Source: Sandaracinobacter neustonicus
GTDB lineage: Bacteria > Pseudomonadota > Alphaproteobacteria > Sphingomonadales > Sphingomonadaceae
Direction of reading: 5' to 3'
Assembly: GCF_006385875.1 (NCBI RefSeq)
Contig: NZ_VFSU01000026.1
Span: 104,501-168,500, forward strand
DNA: 64,000 nucleotides
Shown here: positions 2,958-52,321 of the stretch, one piece after another
Numbering within the stretch: the stretch's first letter is position 1
Layout: every line of letters begins with the position of its first letter
The notes under the pieces: model-generated
What the model saw: only the letters and a program-made list of their open reading frames with translations
Told to the model about the DNA's origin: nothing
Database searches by the model: none
Program-made: the position numbers and the translations under genes

Positions 2958-4721
2958 TCAGAGTTTCGCCAATTGCTGTTTCAGCGTGTCCAGCCCCAGC
3001 GGCCCCATCGCCAGCGCGTCTGCATGCCATTTGCGCCGGTTGAAGGCGGCCCCGGCCTTCGCCATCGCATCGGCCCGGCAATTCAGCCAGACCCGTTCGC
3101 CCAGCTTGTAGGCGCAGGCCTGCGCGGGCCAGCCATAATAGCGCTCCACCTCCATTGCGGCGGCGTCCCGCCCCAGCCCGGAGGCCCGGTCGATCAGAGG
3201 GATGGCGGTGGCGGCGGTCCATGGCTGGCCCGCGCCTTCCATGCCCGACGGGATCTTGCGGCCGGTGTGCAGGCCGATGTCCACGAACACGCGCGCCGCA
3301 CGGAACGACTGCATGGAAAGAAACCCCAGCCGCTTTTGTGGCGTGTCGAACCAGCCCAGTTCGTCCATCAGCCGTTCGGCATAGAGCGCCCAGCCCTCCG
3401 CATGCCCGGCAGCACCCGCGACCCGCTGCAATCGCACCAGATCCAGCAGGCGGGAGCCGCCGATCTGGATATGATGGCCGGGCACGCTTTCATGATAGAT
3501 GGTGCTGTTGGCGCTCCAAGTGGGAAGTTCAGTTTTGCCCAGCGTCGGCCAGACGACCGTCCCTGGCGTCGAAAAATCCTCTGACGGCGCGACATAGAAG
3601 GGCATTGCACCCGAACCGGCCTCCGTCATCTGCACTTTGCAGGTGCGCAGCTGCGGCGGGATGTCGAATTCGCTTTCGCCAAGCTTCGCGATGGCGCGAT
3701 CCACTTCCGCCTGCGCCCAGTCCCGGAAGGGGGCGACCGCCAGCGACTGTTTCGGATCGCCGTCCAGTTGCGTGCGGATATCCTCGAAACTGGCGCCTGC
3801 GCGGATGCGGCCGCTTTCCTTTGTTTTCTCGGCCTCCAGCCGGTGGAACTCCTCCACCGCCCAACCATAGGCTTCATCCAGATCGAGCGTGCGCAGGCCC
3901 AGCCACAGATCGGTGTAGAGCAGGTAGCGCTCGCTGCCGATCCCGTCTTCCGGGCTGGCCTTGGGCGCATAGCTTTGCGCCAGCCACTGCCCCAGTTCGC
4001 CATAGGTGCGATCCGCTTTTGCGGCAGCGGCGGCCAGCGGCCCGGCCAGCGCGCCGCCCGGATAGCGCGCCGCGAACTTCGCGAACCAGCCTTGCGAGGC
4101 CCAGCCGCTGCACTGTTTCGCGACAGCCAGCGTCATTGAACGCGGCGCTGGAAGGTTGCGCACCAGCCCCAGTTCAAGGCTCTGCCGATAGCCGGCCATC
4201 GCCGTCGGCACGGCCTCGAGCCGATGCAGGATGTTCGCCCAGTCCCGGTCGCGTGCATCCGCCGAGACCGGCACATCCCCACTTTGCCCCTGCGACATCT
4301 GTTCGAACGAGGTGAGCAGCAGCGCCGGCGGGCCGATAAAGATATGGGTGCTCATTTTCCGGTAAGGCTCACCCGCCTCGATCCCGGCGAGAATGGCGCG
4401 GGCGGTATCCTCCAGAAACGCCGCACCCAGTTCCTCCTTGCGGTTCAGCGGCGGTGTGTCCGCCAGCTCCGCAAGCGTCGCGCGCATCAGCGCGGCGGCC
4501 TTCTCCGCCCCGGCGGGCGACCAGTCGCTGATGGCGCTACTGTTGCGCTCCAGTCCGAACACCTTGCCCACCAGTGTCGGGTTGATGCGAACATAGGCGT
4601 CCAGAAAATCGTCGCATATCTGCGTAACCGTGCGGCCCGCGCGAGCGAATGCCGGATTGAAGCCCGTCAACCCTGCCATAGTGCCGAACCCGGCAGCGTA
4701 GAGAAAATGCCGCCGCTTCAT
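2958..4721 (-). CDS. DUF885 family protein (putative exported zinc hydrolase)
   Basis: A 587-residue protein whose N-terminus (KRRHFLYAAG followed by a hydrophobic stretch) resembles a Tat signal, so it is probably exported folded. The central-to-C-terminal part contains YHESVPGHHIQI, the HExxxxHH-type signature of DUF885, and GHAEGWALYAERLMDELG, which supplies a further Glu and His. DUF885 proteins are suspected metallopeptidases, but the substrate is unknown. The start is supported by GAGGGG upstream of the ATG. The gene converges on the AraC regulator with only 25 bases between the stops. Confidence 0.88.
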   Translation of the reverse strand: MKRRHFLYAAGFGTMAGLTGFNPAFARAGRTVTQICDDFLDAYVRINPTLVGKVFGLERNSSAISDWSPAGAEKAAALMRATLAELADTPPLNRKEELGAAFLEDTARAILAGIEAGEPYRKMSTHIFIGPPALLLTSFEQMSQGQSGDVPVSADARDRDWANILHRLEAVPTAMAGYRQSLELGLVRNLPAPRSMTLAVAKQCSGWASQGWFAKFAARYPGGALAGPLAAAAAKADRTYGELGQWLAQSYAPKASPEDGIGSERYLLYTDLWLGLRTLDLDEAYGWAVEEFHRLEAEKTKESGRIRAGASFEDIRTQLDGDPKQSLAVAPFRDWAQAEVDRAIAKLGESEFDIPPQLRTCKVQMTEAGSGAMPFYVAPSEDFSTPGTVVWPTLGKTELPTWSANSTIYHESVPGHHIQIGGSRLLDLVRLQRVAGAAGHAEGWALYAERLMDELGWFDTPQKRLGFLSMQSFRAARVFVDIGLHTGRKIPSGMEGAGQPWTAATAIPLIDRASGLGRDAAAMEVERYYGWPAQACAYKLGERVWLNCRADAMAKAGAAFNRRKWHADALAMGPLGLDTLKQQLAKL

Positions 4722-5013
4722 CCTGCCCCCCTCGCAATCCGTAAACCGCCCGGCAGTGGACAGCCGGCACGATCCTATCTCACCCCGCGATTGCGGCTAT
4801 CCGATATCCGCCGCGAAGTTCATTTTGCTGTTGTCCGGAAGGCTCTCTGCCACACCACTGCGCTGGAATTGGGATAGACTACCGGCAACGCCAATGTGAG
4901 CGAATGGCTGATACTGAAGGGGCGGGTTAAGGCCACCGACTTACGAGCCATATTTCGTCACCGCGCAGACCTATTGCGTGGCGGCATAAGCAGCTGTTTT
5001 TATTTGGAAAATA

Positions 5014-5203: not shown

Positions 5204-6319
5204 TCAGATATGTTCCAGCTCCCGCTGCCGGTACACGCCCATCAGGATGCCCAGTGCGATCATCACTGTCAGCGCTGCGCTGCCGCCATAGCTGACCAGC
5301 GGGAAGGGAATGCCCACCACCGGGGCCAGCCCCATCACCATCATGCTGTTGATCAGCACATAGAAGAAAATCGTCATCGAAAGCCCGGCGGCCAGCATCC
5401 GCGCGAAGCGGGTTCGCGCCGACATCCCTGTGCGGATGCCCCAGTTCAGCACCAGCCCATAGGCGATCAGCAGCAGCGCGCCGCCCATCAGCCCCCATTC
5501 CTCGGCCATGGTGGCGAACACGAAATCGGTGTGCTGTTCCGGCAGATATTGCAGATGGCTTTGCGAGCCTTCCATGAAGCCCTTGCCGAAAATCCCGCCG
5601 GATCCGATGGCGATCTTCGATTGGGTGATGTGATAGCCCGCCCCCAGCGGATCGGCGGAGGGATCGAGGAAGATCAGCACGCGCCGCTTCTGGTAATCGT
5701 GCAGCATATTATAGAGCAAGGGCAGCGAAGCCAGCCCCGCCACGCCCGGAATGATGAACCATTTCAGCGGCAGCCCGCCCAGGAACATCATCGTCATGCC
5801 GCCCGCCACGATCATCAGCGCGGTGCCCAGATCGGGCTGCAGCATCACCAGCGCCGCCGGCACGCCGATCATTGCCAGCGGCGGCCAGATTCCCGCCAGC
5901 TTCGCCGGATAGCCGCGCGGCAGGAAATGATAGAAACGCGCCAGCGCCAGCACCACGGCGATCTTCATGAACTCCGAAGGCTGCAACCGGATAAAGCCCA
6001 GATCCAGCCAGCGCTGCGAGCCGCCGGCGATGCCACCCACCACCTCCACGCCGATCAGCGCCACCAATATCACGGCATACAGCGGATAGGCGATCTTCAG
6101 CCACAGCCCCAGCGGCACCTGCGCCAGCACGATCGCCAGCCCCATGAACAGGCTGAGCCGCACCGCATGGTTCAGCGCCCATGGCTGCATGCTGCCGCCC
6201 GCCGCCGAATAGAGCACGACAACCGCGAAGGTGCCAATCGCCCCCACAAGGAAGATGATCCGCCAGGGCAGTTGCAGCGCCCGTTGCGGCCAGCGCGAAT
6301 TCAGCAGATTCTGGATCAT
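5204..6319 (-). CDS. rodA: Rod shape-determining protein RodA (SEDS glycosyltransferase)
   Basis: A 371-residue multi-pass inner-membrane protein that polymerises lipid II glycan strands in the elongasome together with PBP2. SEDS hallmarks are visible: WLDLGFIRLQPSEFMK, MLQPDLGTALMI, and PEQHTDFVFATMAEEWGLMGG. The length fits RodA (about 370) rather than FtsW, and the position directly after mrdA confirms it. The first four bases overlap the end of mrdA (ATGA), so the two are probably translated together. Confidence 0.96.
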   Translation of the reverse strand: MIQNLLNSRWPQRALQLPWRIIFLVGAIGTFAVVVLYSAAGGSMQPWALNHAVRLSLFMGLAIVLAQVPLGLWLKIAYPLYAVILVALIGVEVVGGIAGGSQRWLDLGFIRLQPSEFMKIAVVLALARFYHFLPRGYPAKLAGIWPPLAMIGVPAALVMLQPDLGTALMIVAGGMTMMFLGGLPLKWFIIPGVAGLASLPLLYNMLHDYQKRRVLIFLDPSADPLGAGYHITQSKIAIGSGGIFGKGFMEGSQSHLQYLPEQHTDFVFATMAEEWGLMGGALLLIAYGLVLNWGIRTGMSARTRFARMLAAGLSMTIFFYVLINSMMVMGLAPVVGIPFPLVSYGGSAALTVMIALGILMGVYRQRELEHI

Positions 6320-29546: not shown

Positions 29547-29559
29547 ACGGCTGGGGTTT

Positions 29560-48806: not shown

Positions 48807-48835
48807 TCGGGGATCTTTCGTTCCAAGGTTCCTTT

Positions 48836-48894
48836 GCCTCCGGCGGGCAGGGCCTCGCCCTGCACCCAGCAGGGAAATGATTTCCCTGCACCCT
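48836..48894 (+). repeat. Two-hairpin repeat A, copy 9
   Basis: Box GCCTCCGGCGG, stem CAGGGC-CTC-GCCCTG, second stem GCAGGGAAA-TGA-TTTCCCTGC. It follows the EVE gene in the same direction. Confidence 0.92.
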
Positions 48895-49026
48895 CTATGT
48901 TGGAGAATTGCCGGTTAGCTTTGGGGAAGCAAGGCGGTTTGATTGCTTGCGGCGCTTGGCGCCAACATAGCGGCCGTTCCTTGTGACGACCAACGCCATC
49001 GAAACTTGCCGTTCATTCACAGGTAA

Positions 49027-49326
49027 TTCGGCGGTCACGATCGACCATCTTTTGAGGACGATCTTCTACATGCAGGCAGGCCGTCCGAGCTCGACTATAC
49101 CGACAATGCGGTAGCGAGTGCGGACGCAGCCCGGCTGATCCGCCGCATCGTCGAGAGTGCATCCAATGCGCGCGGCGAAGCTGCGGCGGAATTCCTGCTC
49201 GCTATGGCGATGCGCAGGTTGCGCCTCGCGCAGCGGGATATCCCGAATGTTTTGCACAACCTGCCGAAACAGACACCGATCGTCGATCAACTCGCTGAAA
49301 TCTGTCGTGATCGCCTACTGACGTAG
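49027..49326 (+). pseudogene. 5'-truncated gene remnant
   Basis: An open frame of 99 codons, ending in a TAG at 49324, with protein-like composition, including ELDYTDNAVASADAARLIRRIVE and AEFLLAMAMRRLRLAQRDIPNVLHNL, but no start codon until codon 59 (ATG GCG ATG). A stop codon lies directly before it and repeat DNA further upstream. It looks like the C-terminal part of a gene whose front was lost by insertion. No family recognised. An untruncated small protein using an internal ATG is possible. Confidence 0.45.
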
Positions 49327-49451
49327 GAGGCTTCGCTCGACGGTCAGCCGCTCTCTTGGCAACCGACTGCGGAGCCTGCCGGAGGCGATGACACGCCTGA
49401 TCATCATAATGGCCAACAGCCGCGGCTCAGCCCTGAAACAAGGATATGATA

Positions 49452-49634
49452 TTATTCCTCCCAAAGGTGCAGAGAAGTTAGAGGAAAGACGCCGGTTTCA
49501 AGCTTCGTTTTCTCGAACCACTGACACCACGCCGCCGACTCAGGCCTGCCAGAACGAGTGCCAATTTGATCAATAGTCATGATTGGTCCGCCCGATTTGA
49601 GTTGGACAGTGTCCCCTGGTTTGAAATCAGTCAT
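49452..49634 (-). CDS. DUF2158/YodC-family small protein
   Basis: A 60-residue protein matching the YodC/DUF2158 pattern: FKPGDTVQLKSGGPIMTI at the front, WCQWFEKTKLETGVFPLTSL at the end. Such proteins are SH3-like and of unknown function. AGGAG lies five bases before the ATG. It is the last gene of a three-gene operon of small proteins that runs away from an XRE regulator. Confidence 0.85.
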   Translation of the reverse strand: MTDFKPGDTVQLKSGGPIMTIDQIGTRSGRPESAAWCQWFEKTKLETGVFPLTSLHLWEE

Positions 49635-49664
49635 TTTTTCTCCTATTCTATTGATTAACGAGCC

Positions 49665-49922
49665 TTAGTTTATCGTGTATTCTTGCCACGCAATTGCGCG
49701 AAGTGGCACGGAAGACATGAACCGTGCTATATCATGACGGCCATAATAGGTCGGCCGACCCCACCGATCCTGCGCCATCAGAACGACTGGCACGCCGAAC
49801 GCTGGTGCGAAATTGAGGATGGTATCTGCCGCCAGGCTGCTGTTCCGCACCACGTGCGGTTTGACGATTACGACCGCAAAGGTTTGGCCTTGCTCACGGA
49901 TCACCGCTCCCTGAACACGCAT
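49665..49922 (-). CDS. Hypothetical protein, small-protein operon
   Basis: An 85-residue cytosolic protein with an alpha/beta look: QTFAVVIVKPHVVRN, FGVPVVLMAQDRWGRPTYYGRHDIARFM. It resembles uncharacterised proteins seen near DUF2158 genes, a recollection I cannot check here. GAGGAG lies eight bases before the ATG. Spacing to the neighbours is 30 and 52 bases. Confidence 0.75.
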   Translation of the reverse strand: MRVQGAVIREQGQTFAVVIVKPHVVRNSSLAADTILNFAPAFGVPVVLMAQDRWGRPTYYGRHDIARFMSSVPLRAIAWQEYTIN

Positions 49923-49974
49923 AGTCTCTTCTCCTCGCCCGGTGGCAGAAGAGCGGGGCTCACCCGGCTCTTCG

Positions 49975-50112
49975 TTACTTCTTGCGATTGGGCCGTTGCG
50001 TCAGCGCAGAAGCTGCCGCCGTCTTGGCTGCCGGGCTCGACTTGGGGTTGCTGAGAACCTTCGCCGCTGCCGACGCCGCCTTTGCGCTAGTCACTTCCTT
50101 GTTGCCTGCCAT
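49975..50112 (-). CDS. Ala/Lys-rich 45-residue protein
   Basis: First gene of the small-protein operon, too short to stand out by length. The 45 residues are Ala, Lys and Ser rich: GNKEVTSAKAASAAAKVLSNPKSS and ALTQRPNRKK at the end. The basic, low-complexity make-up suggests nucleic-acid contact but nothing specific. The frame is clean from ATG at 50112 to TAA at 49975, and a strong sigma-70-type promoter lies 54 bases upstream, which supports expression. Confidence 0.65.
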   Translation of the reverse strand: MAGNKEVTSAKAASAAAKVLSNPKSSPAAKTAAASALTQRPNRKK

Positions 50113-50165
50113 TTCAATCGCCCTTTCCGGGACCAGCCGATCGGGAATCGATGGGCCGTGCGCGC

Positions 50166-50195
50166 ATTATCCGCAACGCGCGCTTGATATGTCAA
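50166..50195 (-). promoter_or_regulatory. Promoter of the small-protein operon
   Basis: On the minus strand TTGACA (50195-50190), an 18-base spacer and GATAAT (50171-50166): a near-consensus sigma-70 promoter. The -35 box lies inside the inverted repeat at 50182-50197. Confidence 0.7.
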
Positions 50196-50215
50196 GCAAT
50201 ATCAAGCACGCTTGC
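50182..50215. promoter_or_regulatory. Candidate XRE operator cluster
   Basis: GCTTGA-TATG-TCAAGC (50182-50197) is a perfect inverted repeat. A third TCAAGC (50202-50207) and GCTTGC (50210-50215) follow, the latter pair forming CAAGCACGCTTG. The cluster overlaps the -35 box of the divergent operon and ends at the -35 box of the XRE gene, so one bound protein could repress both. Confidence 0.6.
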
Positions 50216-50241
50216 GATACCAAGCAGAGAAATGCTAGAAT
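50212..50241 (+). promoter_or_regulatory. Promoter of the XRE-immA genes
   Basis: TTGCGA (50212-50217), an 18-base spacer and TAGAAT (50236-50241). If real, transcription starts near 50248 and the protein must start after it, at GTG 50274. Confidence 0.5.
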
Positions 50242-50273
50242 TTCTCTATGATCACTTCCGTCTTGGATTGACC

Positions 50274-50642
50274 GTGCCTGACAGCAAAAAGCAGGCTTTG
50301 ACGCTCGGCGGCTATTTAGCTGCAGTGCGATCCGATCGGGGACTCTCTCTGCGGCAGGTTGAGGAGATGACCCGAAAAGAGGTTTCCAACGCCTATCTTA
50401 GTCAGCTTGAGAATGACAAAGTAAAACAGCCCTCACCGAACGTACTACATTCATTGTCGTCGACGTATGAAATTGACTACATTGGCCTCATGGAACGCGC
50501 TGGGTATTTGACACCACAACAATCGGCGGCAGCGCCCAAACGTCATGGAAGAGTCGCGACCTTTGCTGAAATCGATTTGACTTCTGACGAGGAAGCTGAA
50601 TTACTTCGGTTTCTTAAATTTATGAGAAGCGAAAAGAAATAA
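50274..50642 (+). CDS. XRE-family transcriptional regulator
   Basis: A 122-residue repressor-like protein. The HTH domain lies at residues 6-75: LTLGGYLAAVRSDRGLSLRQVEEMTRKEVSNAYLSQLENDKVKQPSPNVL. The C-terminal 45 residues are charged. I prefer the GTG at 50274 because the ATG at 50232 lies inside the predicted promoter. It is followed after three bases by an ImmA-type protease gene, the layout in which the protease cleaves the repressor. Confidence 0.85.
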   Translation: MPDSKKQALTLGGYLAAVRSDRGLSLRQVEEMTRKEVSNAYLSQLENDKVKQPSPNVLHSLSSTYEIDYIGLMERAGYLTPQQSAAAPKRHGRVATFAEIDLTSDEEAELLRFLKFMRSEKK

Positions 50643-50645
50643 GAA

Positions 50646-51536
50646 TTGCGTAGAGACGACAGCTCGTTGAGTCATGCCGAGCGGGCATTCGTCGAGAGTC
50701 GCGCAAAGATTCTACTTGAGCGCGCCGACGCTTGGGGCGTTGTACCCGTCCCAATTGACGATCTACTTGCCGCCGCTAAGCTCAGAGTTGCGCCCACCAG
50801 CATGTTCGACCCGCGCGCCATTGCAGCATATGCCGTGGCTCAGGGTAAAAAGGCGGCGGATGTCGTCAAGCGTGCGTTGGGGAAGGTACTTGGCATCCTC
50901 GATGCATATGAGGAGGTCATCCATATCGACGATTCCGTGCTGGAAACTCGTCAGCGCTTTCTGAAGTTGCACGAAACCGGCCATTTTGAACTGCCGCATC
51001 AACGCAAAATTTTCCGGTTTTTCGAGGACAGTGAGGAAGAACTGAACCCTTCGATCGTCGATAAGTTCGAACGAGAGGCAAACAATTTCGCAAGATATGC
51101 AATCTTCAACGGCAATGCATATGCCGAGCGCGCTGCCGATTTTCCCTTGGCCTTTTCTTCTGTCAAAAAGATGAAAAGCGTCTTTAATGTGTCTCTCTAC
51201 GCTGGGTTGCGAGAATATGCGCGTACGCACCGGCACGTCTGCATTGCGATGGCAGTGGAGAAGCCTGCCCTATGCCCACAAAACGGCTGGAGCGCCGAAA
51301 TCCGCCGGGTCGAAACGTCGCTCGAATTCGAGCGGCAATTTGGGCGACCGCAGCTTTCCGTTATCACGACCAATCACCCATTCTGGCGTCTAGTGCCGTT
51401 TGGAAAAGCAACCAAGCCCACGAAGGTGTGGCTCACCAACCTCAATGGCGAACAGCAAGAGTTTGTCGGAGAGGCGCTAGACACGACATACAATATCCTA
51501 ATTTTCGCCTGTCCCACTGCTCTGTTCAAAAGCTAA
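50646..51536 (+). CDS. ImmA/IrrE-type metallo-endopeptidase
   Basis: A 296-residue zinc protease: HETGHFELPH gives the HExxH motif at residues 109-113, and FEREANNFA about 30 residues later holds the third ligand. ImmA proteins cleave XRE repressors in mobile elements; IrrE of Deinococcus controls the radiation response. It starts with TTG three bases after the XRE stop, so the pair is co-transcribed. The C-terminal 80 residues are variable. Confidence 0.88.
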   Translation: MRRDDSSLSHAERAFVESRAKILLERADAWGVVPVPIDDLLAAAKLRVAPTSMFDPRAIAAYAVAQGKKAADVVKRALGKVLGILDAYEEVIHIDDSVLETRQRFLKLHETGHFELPHQRKIFRFFEDSEEELNPSIVDKFEREANNFARYAIFNGNAYAERAADFPLAFSSVKKMKSVFNVSLYAGLREYARTHRHVCIAMAVEKPALCPQNGWSAEIRRVETSLEFERQFGRPQLSVITTNHPFWRLVPFGKATKPTKVWLTNLNGEQQEFVGEALDTTYNILIFACPTALFKS

Positions 51537-51753
51537 TTTCAGCGGAAATCTTTAGCTATGCTGAGATCGCCGCAATCCTAAATGAACGGCAGTTTGCCGC
51601 TAATGTCGATTATAGCCGGACATTCGGGACCGTCCAAAAGAAGCCAACCTTCGAGCATGACGGCCCACCCCAAATCCACCCAAAAACAGACAAGCGCCGC
51701 AGGCGATCATTCCCCCACCTGCCCGCAGCATGACGATAAAGCCCAAATTTCGA
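51537..51753. other. Spacer after immA-like gene, no gene recognised
   Basis: 217 bases. An in-frame stretch with SYAEIAAILNERQF hints at a resolvase tail but is too short to use. It ends with a piece of the GCGCCGCAGGC repeat core. Confidence 0.4.
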
Positions 51754-51810
51754 GGGTGCAGGGACATCATGTCCCTGCCGGGTCCGGGCAGAGCCCGGCC
51801 GCCGGAGGCA
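51754..51810 (-). repeat. Two-hairpin repeat A, copy 10
   Basis: Minus-strand copy four bases after the YbaN-family stop. Stems CCGGGC-TCT-GCCCGG and GCAGGGACA-TGA-TGTCCCTGC. It faces copy 9 across the accessory block. Confidence 0.92.
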
Positions 51811-51814
51811 AACT

Positions 51815-52321
51815 TCACGAAGGTCGGCTCAAAATCCACGCCGCGCACAGGGTCATCGCCGCTGCCACCCCGGCTGCCAACGCAAACCCCGGTTTTGCGG
51901 AGAGCAGGAACAGCGCATAGCCCAGCGTGATTCCGCCTGCGGCGAACGCCTTGCCCCGGCGGGAGATTGCGCCGCGATCCCGCCAGTCTCGCACGGCGGG
52001 GCCGAAGCGGGGGTGCGCCAAAATCCGCGCCTCCAGCTTGGGGGAGGAGCGGGCGAAGCAGCCTGCTGCGAGGATCAGGAAGATGGTGGTGGGCATCAGC
52101 GGCAGGATTGCGCCGATGATGCCCAGCCCCACGAAGCCGAACCCTGCCGCCAGCCACAGCGGCCGCGCCGCGCCGGGGGCGCGAGGCTGGTCAACGCCGG
52201 GCTGGCGCGGCGGTTCCGGCTGAGCCGGATCGGGCAGGGGTGGCTCTGCCGTCAGTGGCTGTGCTGCCCGGCGTTGGTCCAGCCTGTTGCGCCGGATTCG
52301 CCATGGGCACCCACCCACCAA
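51815..52321 (-). CDS. YbaN-family (DUF454) membrane protein
   Basis: A small inner-membrane protein with LWLAAGFGFVGLGIIGAILPLMPTTIFLILAAGCFARSSPKLEARILAHPRFGPAVRDW, the YbaN signature, and two more hydrophobic segments near the C-terminus. The start is uncertain. The conserved core begins near 52180, no ATG, GTG or TTG lies just before it, and the first usable ones are ATG 52321 and GTG 52318, inside the coding tail of the amidohydrolase gene. The overlap with the broken gene at 52252 may reflect that tail. Confidence 0.75.
   Translation of the reverse strand: MVGGCPWRIRRNRLDQRRAAQPLTAEPPLPDPAQPEPPRQPGVDQPRAPGAARPLWLAAGFGFVGLGIIGAILPLMPTTIFLILAAGCFARSSPKLEARILAHPRFGPAVRDWRDRGAISRRGKAFAAGGITLGYALFLLSAKPGFALAAGVAAAMTLCAAWILSRPS

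Follow-up and report, generated by a model that had tools for sequence, protein, structure and literature searches.

Organization of the locus

The window, that is, the whole 64 kb stretch of DNA analysed here, contains five genes of interest in two divergent groups. On the plus strand, the gene of a CapH-like XRE repressor of 122 aa (50274..50642, +; PADLOC capH, 6.6e-5; HTH_31, 1.2e-7) is followed, after a gap of 3 bp, by the gene of a CapP-like ImmA/IrrE (M78) metallopeptidase of 296 aa with an HETGH active site (50646..51536, +; PADLOC capP, 3.6e-14). The XRE gene most likely starts at the GTG at 50274 rather than at the ATG at 50151, which would give a longer protein, because the related locus of Sphingobium Sx8-8 (L006) has an ATG at the aligned position. 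On the minus strand lie the genes of three small proteins: p45 (45 aa; 49975..50112, -; PHROG 5079, 5.1e-11), p85 (85 aa; 49665..49922, -; PHROG 23950, 8.6e-24) and, in third place, a 60-aa DUF2158 (YodC-like) protein (49452..49634, -; Pfam PF09926, E = 1.3e-12), which scored 47.6 bits against a curated cut-off of 22.3. Clear AGGAG-like ribosome sites were found for p85 and the 60-mer, the latter having AGGAG itself, and a weaker GGAAAGG was found for p45. The p45 protein is basic (pI 11.3) and has an Ala/Lys-rich repeat unit. No Pfam family matched p45 or p85, and neither of their PHROG families carries a functional annotation. The open reading frames and Pfam matches agree with an earlier note on this DNA, which had described an XRE-ImmA pair divergent from an operon for 45-, 85- and 60-residue proteins, the last of them a DUF2158 protein.

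As evident from the comparison with congeners, these genes lie in a variable islet (48807..51814) between convergent EVE and DUF454 genes. The two flanking genes abut in congeners G003 and G005, and at the same junction G001 (L081) carries the gene of a 260-aa protein (5237-6016, -); the junction being empty in the former and occupied by another gene in the latter, the cassette of the window belongs to a variable islet. Besides the five genes, the islet holds only a decayed ORF, and its flanks are chromosomal genes common to congeners. The decayed ORF (DYTDNAVASADAARLIRRIVESASNARGEAAAEFLL..., 49093-49326, +) lies to the left of the DUF2158 gene, has no in-frame start and is likely the remnant of another gene. 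We found no integrase, excisionase, conjugation or replication gene in the islet (48807-51814), and it had been correctly stated before that integrase, structural and replication genes are missing there. REP-like repeats were present near both islet edges (48835-48904 and 51751-51820); since such repeats also occur elsewhere in the window (near 29559, 35330 and 46594), they give no evidence of an insertion mechanism.

Identity of the XRE-ImmA regulator

The best PADLOC match of the protease was capP, and Pfam matched it to Peptidase_M78 (1.5e-7). For the XRE protein, HTH_VI (5.2e-7) outscored capH in PADLOC; no curated cut-off is given for any of these PADLOC matches. In a structure-database comparison with profiles made from eight relatives, the best solved relative of the protease was CapP (7T5T), with a marginal E-value of 0.003, and for the XRE protein the top structures were an immunity repressor (2.8e-7), DdrO and CapH (7T5U, 8.7e-6). 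The window protease contains LHETGH, and the HExxH motif was kept in 17 of 17 proteases compared. These regulator matches are to broad families, which counts against a narrow CapH-CapP identity; nevertheless, sequence and context together support well the assignment of the pair as a putative controller of the CapH-CapP type, consisting of a repressor and an ImmA/IrrE protease. CapP is activated by ssDNA and cleaves CapH, and such controllers sit at Bub operons, of which 219 of 544 have CapW or CapH+CapP (PMC13373217); the association of CapH-CapP with Bub operons is therefore already known (PMC13373217). The same source, citing Lau et al. 2022, names CapH and CapP as controllers of both CBASS and Bub operons. 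PprI/IrrE is likewise an ssDNA-activated protease that cleaves a repressor (PMC10904395).

A profile of this ImmA clade matched in 3 of 385 class genomes and in 1 of 299 phylum genomes. In phage records and viral contigs, no relative of this ImmA was found at the sensitivity of those searches, and a phage origin of the protein was therefore dropped.

A putative paired operator over both divergent promoters

Both divergent promoters were found as the earlier note had described them. The promoter of the small-protein operon (TTGACA-18-GATAAT; 50166..50195, -) scored 11/12 and that of the XRE-ImmA operon (TTGCGA-18-TAGAAT; 50212..50241, +) scored 9/12; in total, the region held 5 promoter-like sites against 1.3 expected. 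Two 16-bp putative operators overlap these promoters. Operator O1 (GCTTGATATGTCAAGC; 50182..50197), which recurs in L006 and at the equivalent position of other relatives, covers the -35 element of the small-protein promoter, and operator O2 (GCTTGCGATACCAAGC; 50210..50225), at a distance of 28 bp from O1, covers that of the XRE-ImmA promoter. An extra half-site, TCAAGC (50202..50207), lies between them. O1 is the sole perfect match to GCTTGA-N4-TCAAGC in the window.

We scored the pair by the pattern GCTWRA-N4-TYWAGC occurring twice with a spacing of 28-29 bp. The score of O1/O2 was equalled by no other pair in the window and by none of 1000 shuffled versions of the intergenic region. An operator pair at this spacing was present in all ten of the closest scored loci (the window, L006-L012, L056 and L057), with no more than 2 of 1000 shuffles doing as well in any of them; as the degenerate pattern was devised after these sequences had been viewed, these counts err on the optimistic side. 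The perfect 12-base palindrome, for which the motif of the earlier note itself was used, was found in the window, L006, L009 and L010. In L055, a second site was seen by eye at 30 bp, and the automatic score at 28-29 bp was not significant. The operator pair was absent from the most distant pair of genes, L058 (28% identity). The scored loci were the window, L006-L012 and L055-L058. The shared operator proposed earlier thus gains in weight: the putative operator is well supported as an element that the regulator clade retains irrespective of its cargo.

A four-gene cassette shared with Sphingobium Sx8-8

The only close relative of the whole cassette that we found was L006. The sole stretch homologous between the two loci (49664..51539; 81% DNA identity) extends from the stop of p85 to just past the stop of the ImmA gene; it contains p45, p85 and the genes of the CapH-like and CapP-like proteins, and it is cut exactly at gene ends. 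The XRE protein was 96% identical to its L006 counterpart. The dN/dS values were 0.010/0.464 for p45, 0.109/0.941 for p85, 0.025/1.636 for XRE and 0.062/1.284 for ImmA; dN being far below dS in each case, all four genes are kept as proteins, and the sequence comparison indicates that they are under purifying selection.

The DUF2158 gene is absent from L006, where its place as third gene is taken by a TIR-domain gene (TIR_2, 5.6e-19; 4085-4978, -) about 40 bp after p85, a gap that assumes that the TIR gene starts at an internal ATG. Beyond it lies the gene of a 205-aa protein without a Pfam match (3420-4037, +). A conserved module of five genes, as the earlier note had proposed, was ruled out, since L006 has p45, p85, XRE and ImmA but no DUF2158, and homology stops at p85. 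Among 72 class genomes, DUF2158 was found only in that of the window and is not common in this sample.

Relatives of the regulator and their cargo

We compared the operons that face the XRE-ImmA pairs of relatives. Six annotated plasmid loci (L007-L012), with Methylovirgula, Methylocystis, Mesorhizobium, Rhizobium, Roseomonas and Bradyrhizobium as hosts, carry an XRE-ImmA pair divergent from a multiubiquitin/ThiF operon, in some cases with E2 and DUF6527 genes. Further pairs facing such Bub-type operons were L097, L099, L100 and L102 and, from sequence, L055, L056, L058 and L098; Multi_ubiq, Prok-E2_E, ThiF and DUF6527 were confirmed by Pfam in L056, and multiubiquitin was assigned by reading in L055, L058 and L098. 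Small-protein cargo was present instead in the window, L006, L057 and L101. The pair of L057 faces DUF3892 and DUF2188 genes, and that of L101 (Mycolicibacterium) faces the gene of a 67-aa basic repeat protein. Among the ORFs of the islet, no ubiquitin-like, E2 or ThiF/E1 gene was found, such genes being present opposite the pairs of relatives; the small-protein operon of the window holds no recognised effector and is not a recognised immune operon.

In a single IQ-TREE tree of 17 proteases, 13 relatives face multiubiquitin/E2/ThiF (Bub-type) operons. The small-protein label required at least three changes on this tree, which were forced by well-supported branches: the window and L006 were nested inside Bub controllers (95/92, 100/99), and L057 was nested inside another Bub set (99/99). 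L101 formed a long branch, the placement of which is unsure. The count of changes alone leaves their direction unfixed; replacement of a Bub operon by small proteins would be the simpler reading for the window/L006 and for L057. Thus, the tree supports an exchange of cargo under a regulator that was probably kept. The likeness to mobile-element switches seen in the earlier note does not extend to the nearest relatives of the pair, which control multiubiquitin/E1/E2 operons and not excision.

Two further observations concern neighbouring arrangements. In Phaeobacter, an operon that begins with DUF2188 and includes a ThiF gene faces an XRE-ImmA pair. Two Rhodobacterales plasmids (L016 and L108), the layouts of which were compared by reading, share a three-gene ImmA layout divergent from a protein of 92/93 aa, which is followed by p85 in L016 and by DUF2188 in L108.

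Occurrence of p45 and p85 outside the cassette

A tblastn search of plasmids and phages with p45 gave no match, probably because the low-complexity filter masks its Ala/Lys-rich sequence, and its distribution was taken from a profile search instead. The p45 family was found in 24 of 299 sampled phylum genomes, some of them with tandem copies, and in 0 of 14 controls. Of the 23 genomes other than that of the window, four have a WYL gene within 5 kb of p45, against 0.085 expected (Poisson P ~2e-6), and this gene adjoins p45 in three loci (L062-L064). Two of these four genomes also contain BrxA/BrxB-like genes, by reading; when neighbours were read by eye, they included BrxA/BrxB-like (BREX), HsdS-like and similar genes. 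An M78 gene adjoins p45 in one genome (G478; 0.09 expected), which is not significant alone. The p45 match was interrupted by a stop in G740 (L063) and in G385.

By alignment, p85 was found in the genome of the window only among the 299 phylum genomes, and in 3 of 385 genomes of the class sample, its own included. Elsewhere, it occurs in Rhizobium and cyanobacterial plasmids without this XRE-ImmA pair: it is divergent from ATPase and S8 peptidase pairs in Rhizobium, together with a DUF2188 gene, and near such a pair in Leptolyngbya. These ATPase and S8 protease pairs may be of the IetAS type. In Fuscovulum, p85 lies beside another ImmA module. The neighbour loci of p45, p85 and DUF2188 were chosen from ranked hits and are not a random sample. 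As small proteins thus occur without the pair (p45 in 23 other genomes, p85 in plasmids and in the viral contigs described below), an exclusive five-gene module fails by the earlier note's own proposal that common occurrence of the small genes without XRE-ImmA would speak against it.

The company of p85 bears on whether one of the small proteins might be a toxin that the XRE-ImmA pair keeps off, as in a toxin-antitoxin-like or addiction module. Its position beside pairs resembling IetAS would fit, and the outputs of CapHP and DdrO/IrrE can kill the cell (PMC10233336). None of the small proteins, however, matched a toxin family in Pfam, PADLOC or PHROG, and we regard such a module as improbable.

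In 34 viral contigs, p85 was present as a single gene, in many of them near phage repressors (L114, L116, L117, L132, L134 and others); a number of these genes lie within ~2.7 kb of XRE repressors, and four are also near an ImmA gene. It is possible that viral p85 is a lysogenic-conversion gene, and p85, being also a prophage gene, may be generic mobile-element cargo. These relatives, the decayed ORF in the islet and the fact that the site is an insertion would be in line with a relic of an integrative element or prophage that carried an ImmR-ImmA switch: the regulator and p85 would then derive from a lysogeny module, and the small proteins would be passengers (morons) that share no function. 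We consider this unlikely, because genes for an integrase, an excisionase, replication functions and structural proteins are missing from the islet, phage records and viral contigs yielded no relative of this ImmA, the nearest regulator relatives control Bub-type operons rather than excision genes, and the four cassette genes are under purifying selection against L006 in a block cut at gene ends. That prophage p85 is often near repressors, together with the small size and divergent position of the proteins, could also suggest that they regulate CapH-CapP, as feedback factors or anti-repressors, and are not its output. This appears very improbable, since relatives of the pair keep the same operators without p45 or p85, and both proteins adjoin unrelated regulators (WYL, IetAS-like pairs).

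A single-sequence model of p85 was poor (pLDDT 62), while a model from 36 sequences was confident (pLDDT 92, pTM 0.80) and predicted a small compact alpha/beta domain. The best PDB matches of this model in Foldseek were chains of tRNA-splicing endonucleases (E ~0.01, TM ~0.4) and the best in VIA-align were PhzF-type proteins (Z 5.7); neither was significant, and we claim no function for p85 from its fold.

Proposed mechanism and comparison with known systems

Taken together, we favour the reading that the locus is a transferable, DNA-damage-triggered controller of the CapH-CapP type with exchanged small-protein cargo, which probably serves defence or stress. By analogy with the known systems, the CapH-like XRE protein would occupy the two 16-bp palindromes on both -35 elements and thereby repress its own operon and that of the small proteins. 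The CapP-like protease, probably triggered by ssDNA upon DNA damage or phage attack, would cleave CapH and release both promoters, and the output would be a burst of p45 and p85, here with DUF2158. The regulator would descend from one that governed an operon of the Bub type (multiubiquitin-E2-ThiF), and would have retained its operator when the cargo was swapped. As judged from their gene company, the most likely role of the small proteins would be that of a compact module for defence or damage stress, or of accessories to such a module. The interpretation in the earlier note of a stress-induced, regulatory XRE-protease module with a mobile-element flavour is retained to this extent, without its exclusive unit of five genes. 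A tentative extension, which we hold to be rather less likely than not to be correct, is that p45, p85 and the DUF2158 protein of this locus, together with DUF2188/DUF3892 of related loci, represent a so far unrecognised class of damage-induced small-protein effectors that take over the task of the Bub operon. If this extension is true, they would form a minimal antiphage or damage-stress system interchangeable with a Bub operon under the same CapH-CapP switch.

We found the locus to be generally similar to CapH and CapP: an HTH repressor gene is followed by an M78 protease gene and is divergent from the controlled operon, PADLOC matches both proteins, paired palindromes, the putative operators, cover both promoters, and the clade is shared with pairs that face Bub operons. 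The difference lies in the cargo, as the window has uncharacterised small proteins and no cyclase, E1/E2, ubiquitin-like protein or recognised effector. CapK and CapS occur with a YegP-like gene in 57 of 443 cases (PMC13373217), and there, too, a DNA-damage-activated controller stands before a single small protein of no known function; the controller in that case is a kinase/STAS system, whereas here it is a protease and a repressor, and YegP is not among the families found. The logic of M78 protease, XRE repressor and ssDNA trigger would be that of IrrE/PprI-DdrO of Deinococcus (PMC10904395), and the XRE profile has DdrO as one of its top structure matches; in contrast, sequence similarity is low, and IrrE/PprI-DdrO controls a scattered DNA-repair regulon rather than one divergent operon. 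ImmR-ImmA of ICEBs1 and TnSmu1 (PMC10233336) is likewise a repressor-protease pair responsive to DNA damage, a property that the present pair may share, although it has no surrounding integrative element.

In the literature examined, no link of PHROG 23950 or PHROG 5079 to CapHP-type controllers is described. Controllers of the CapH-CapP type reveal genes that are wanted only under DNA damage, and PHROG 5079, PHROG 23950, DUF2188 and DUF3892 thereby gain a concrete hypothesis as damage-induced defence or stress factors. One switch with two outputs, a Bub operon or small proteins, also offers a direct comparison. The finding extends the published observation that CapK and CapS occasionally precede a lone YegP gene (PMC13373217). 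On a plasmid of Legionella sainthelensi (L109), a DUF2188 gene lies between the genes of Ku and LigD (DNA ligase D), a position that suggests a link of this family to double-strand-break repair.
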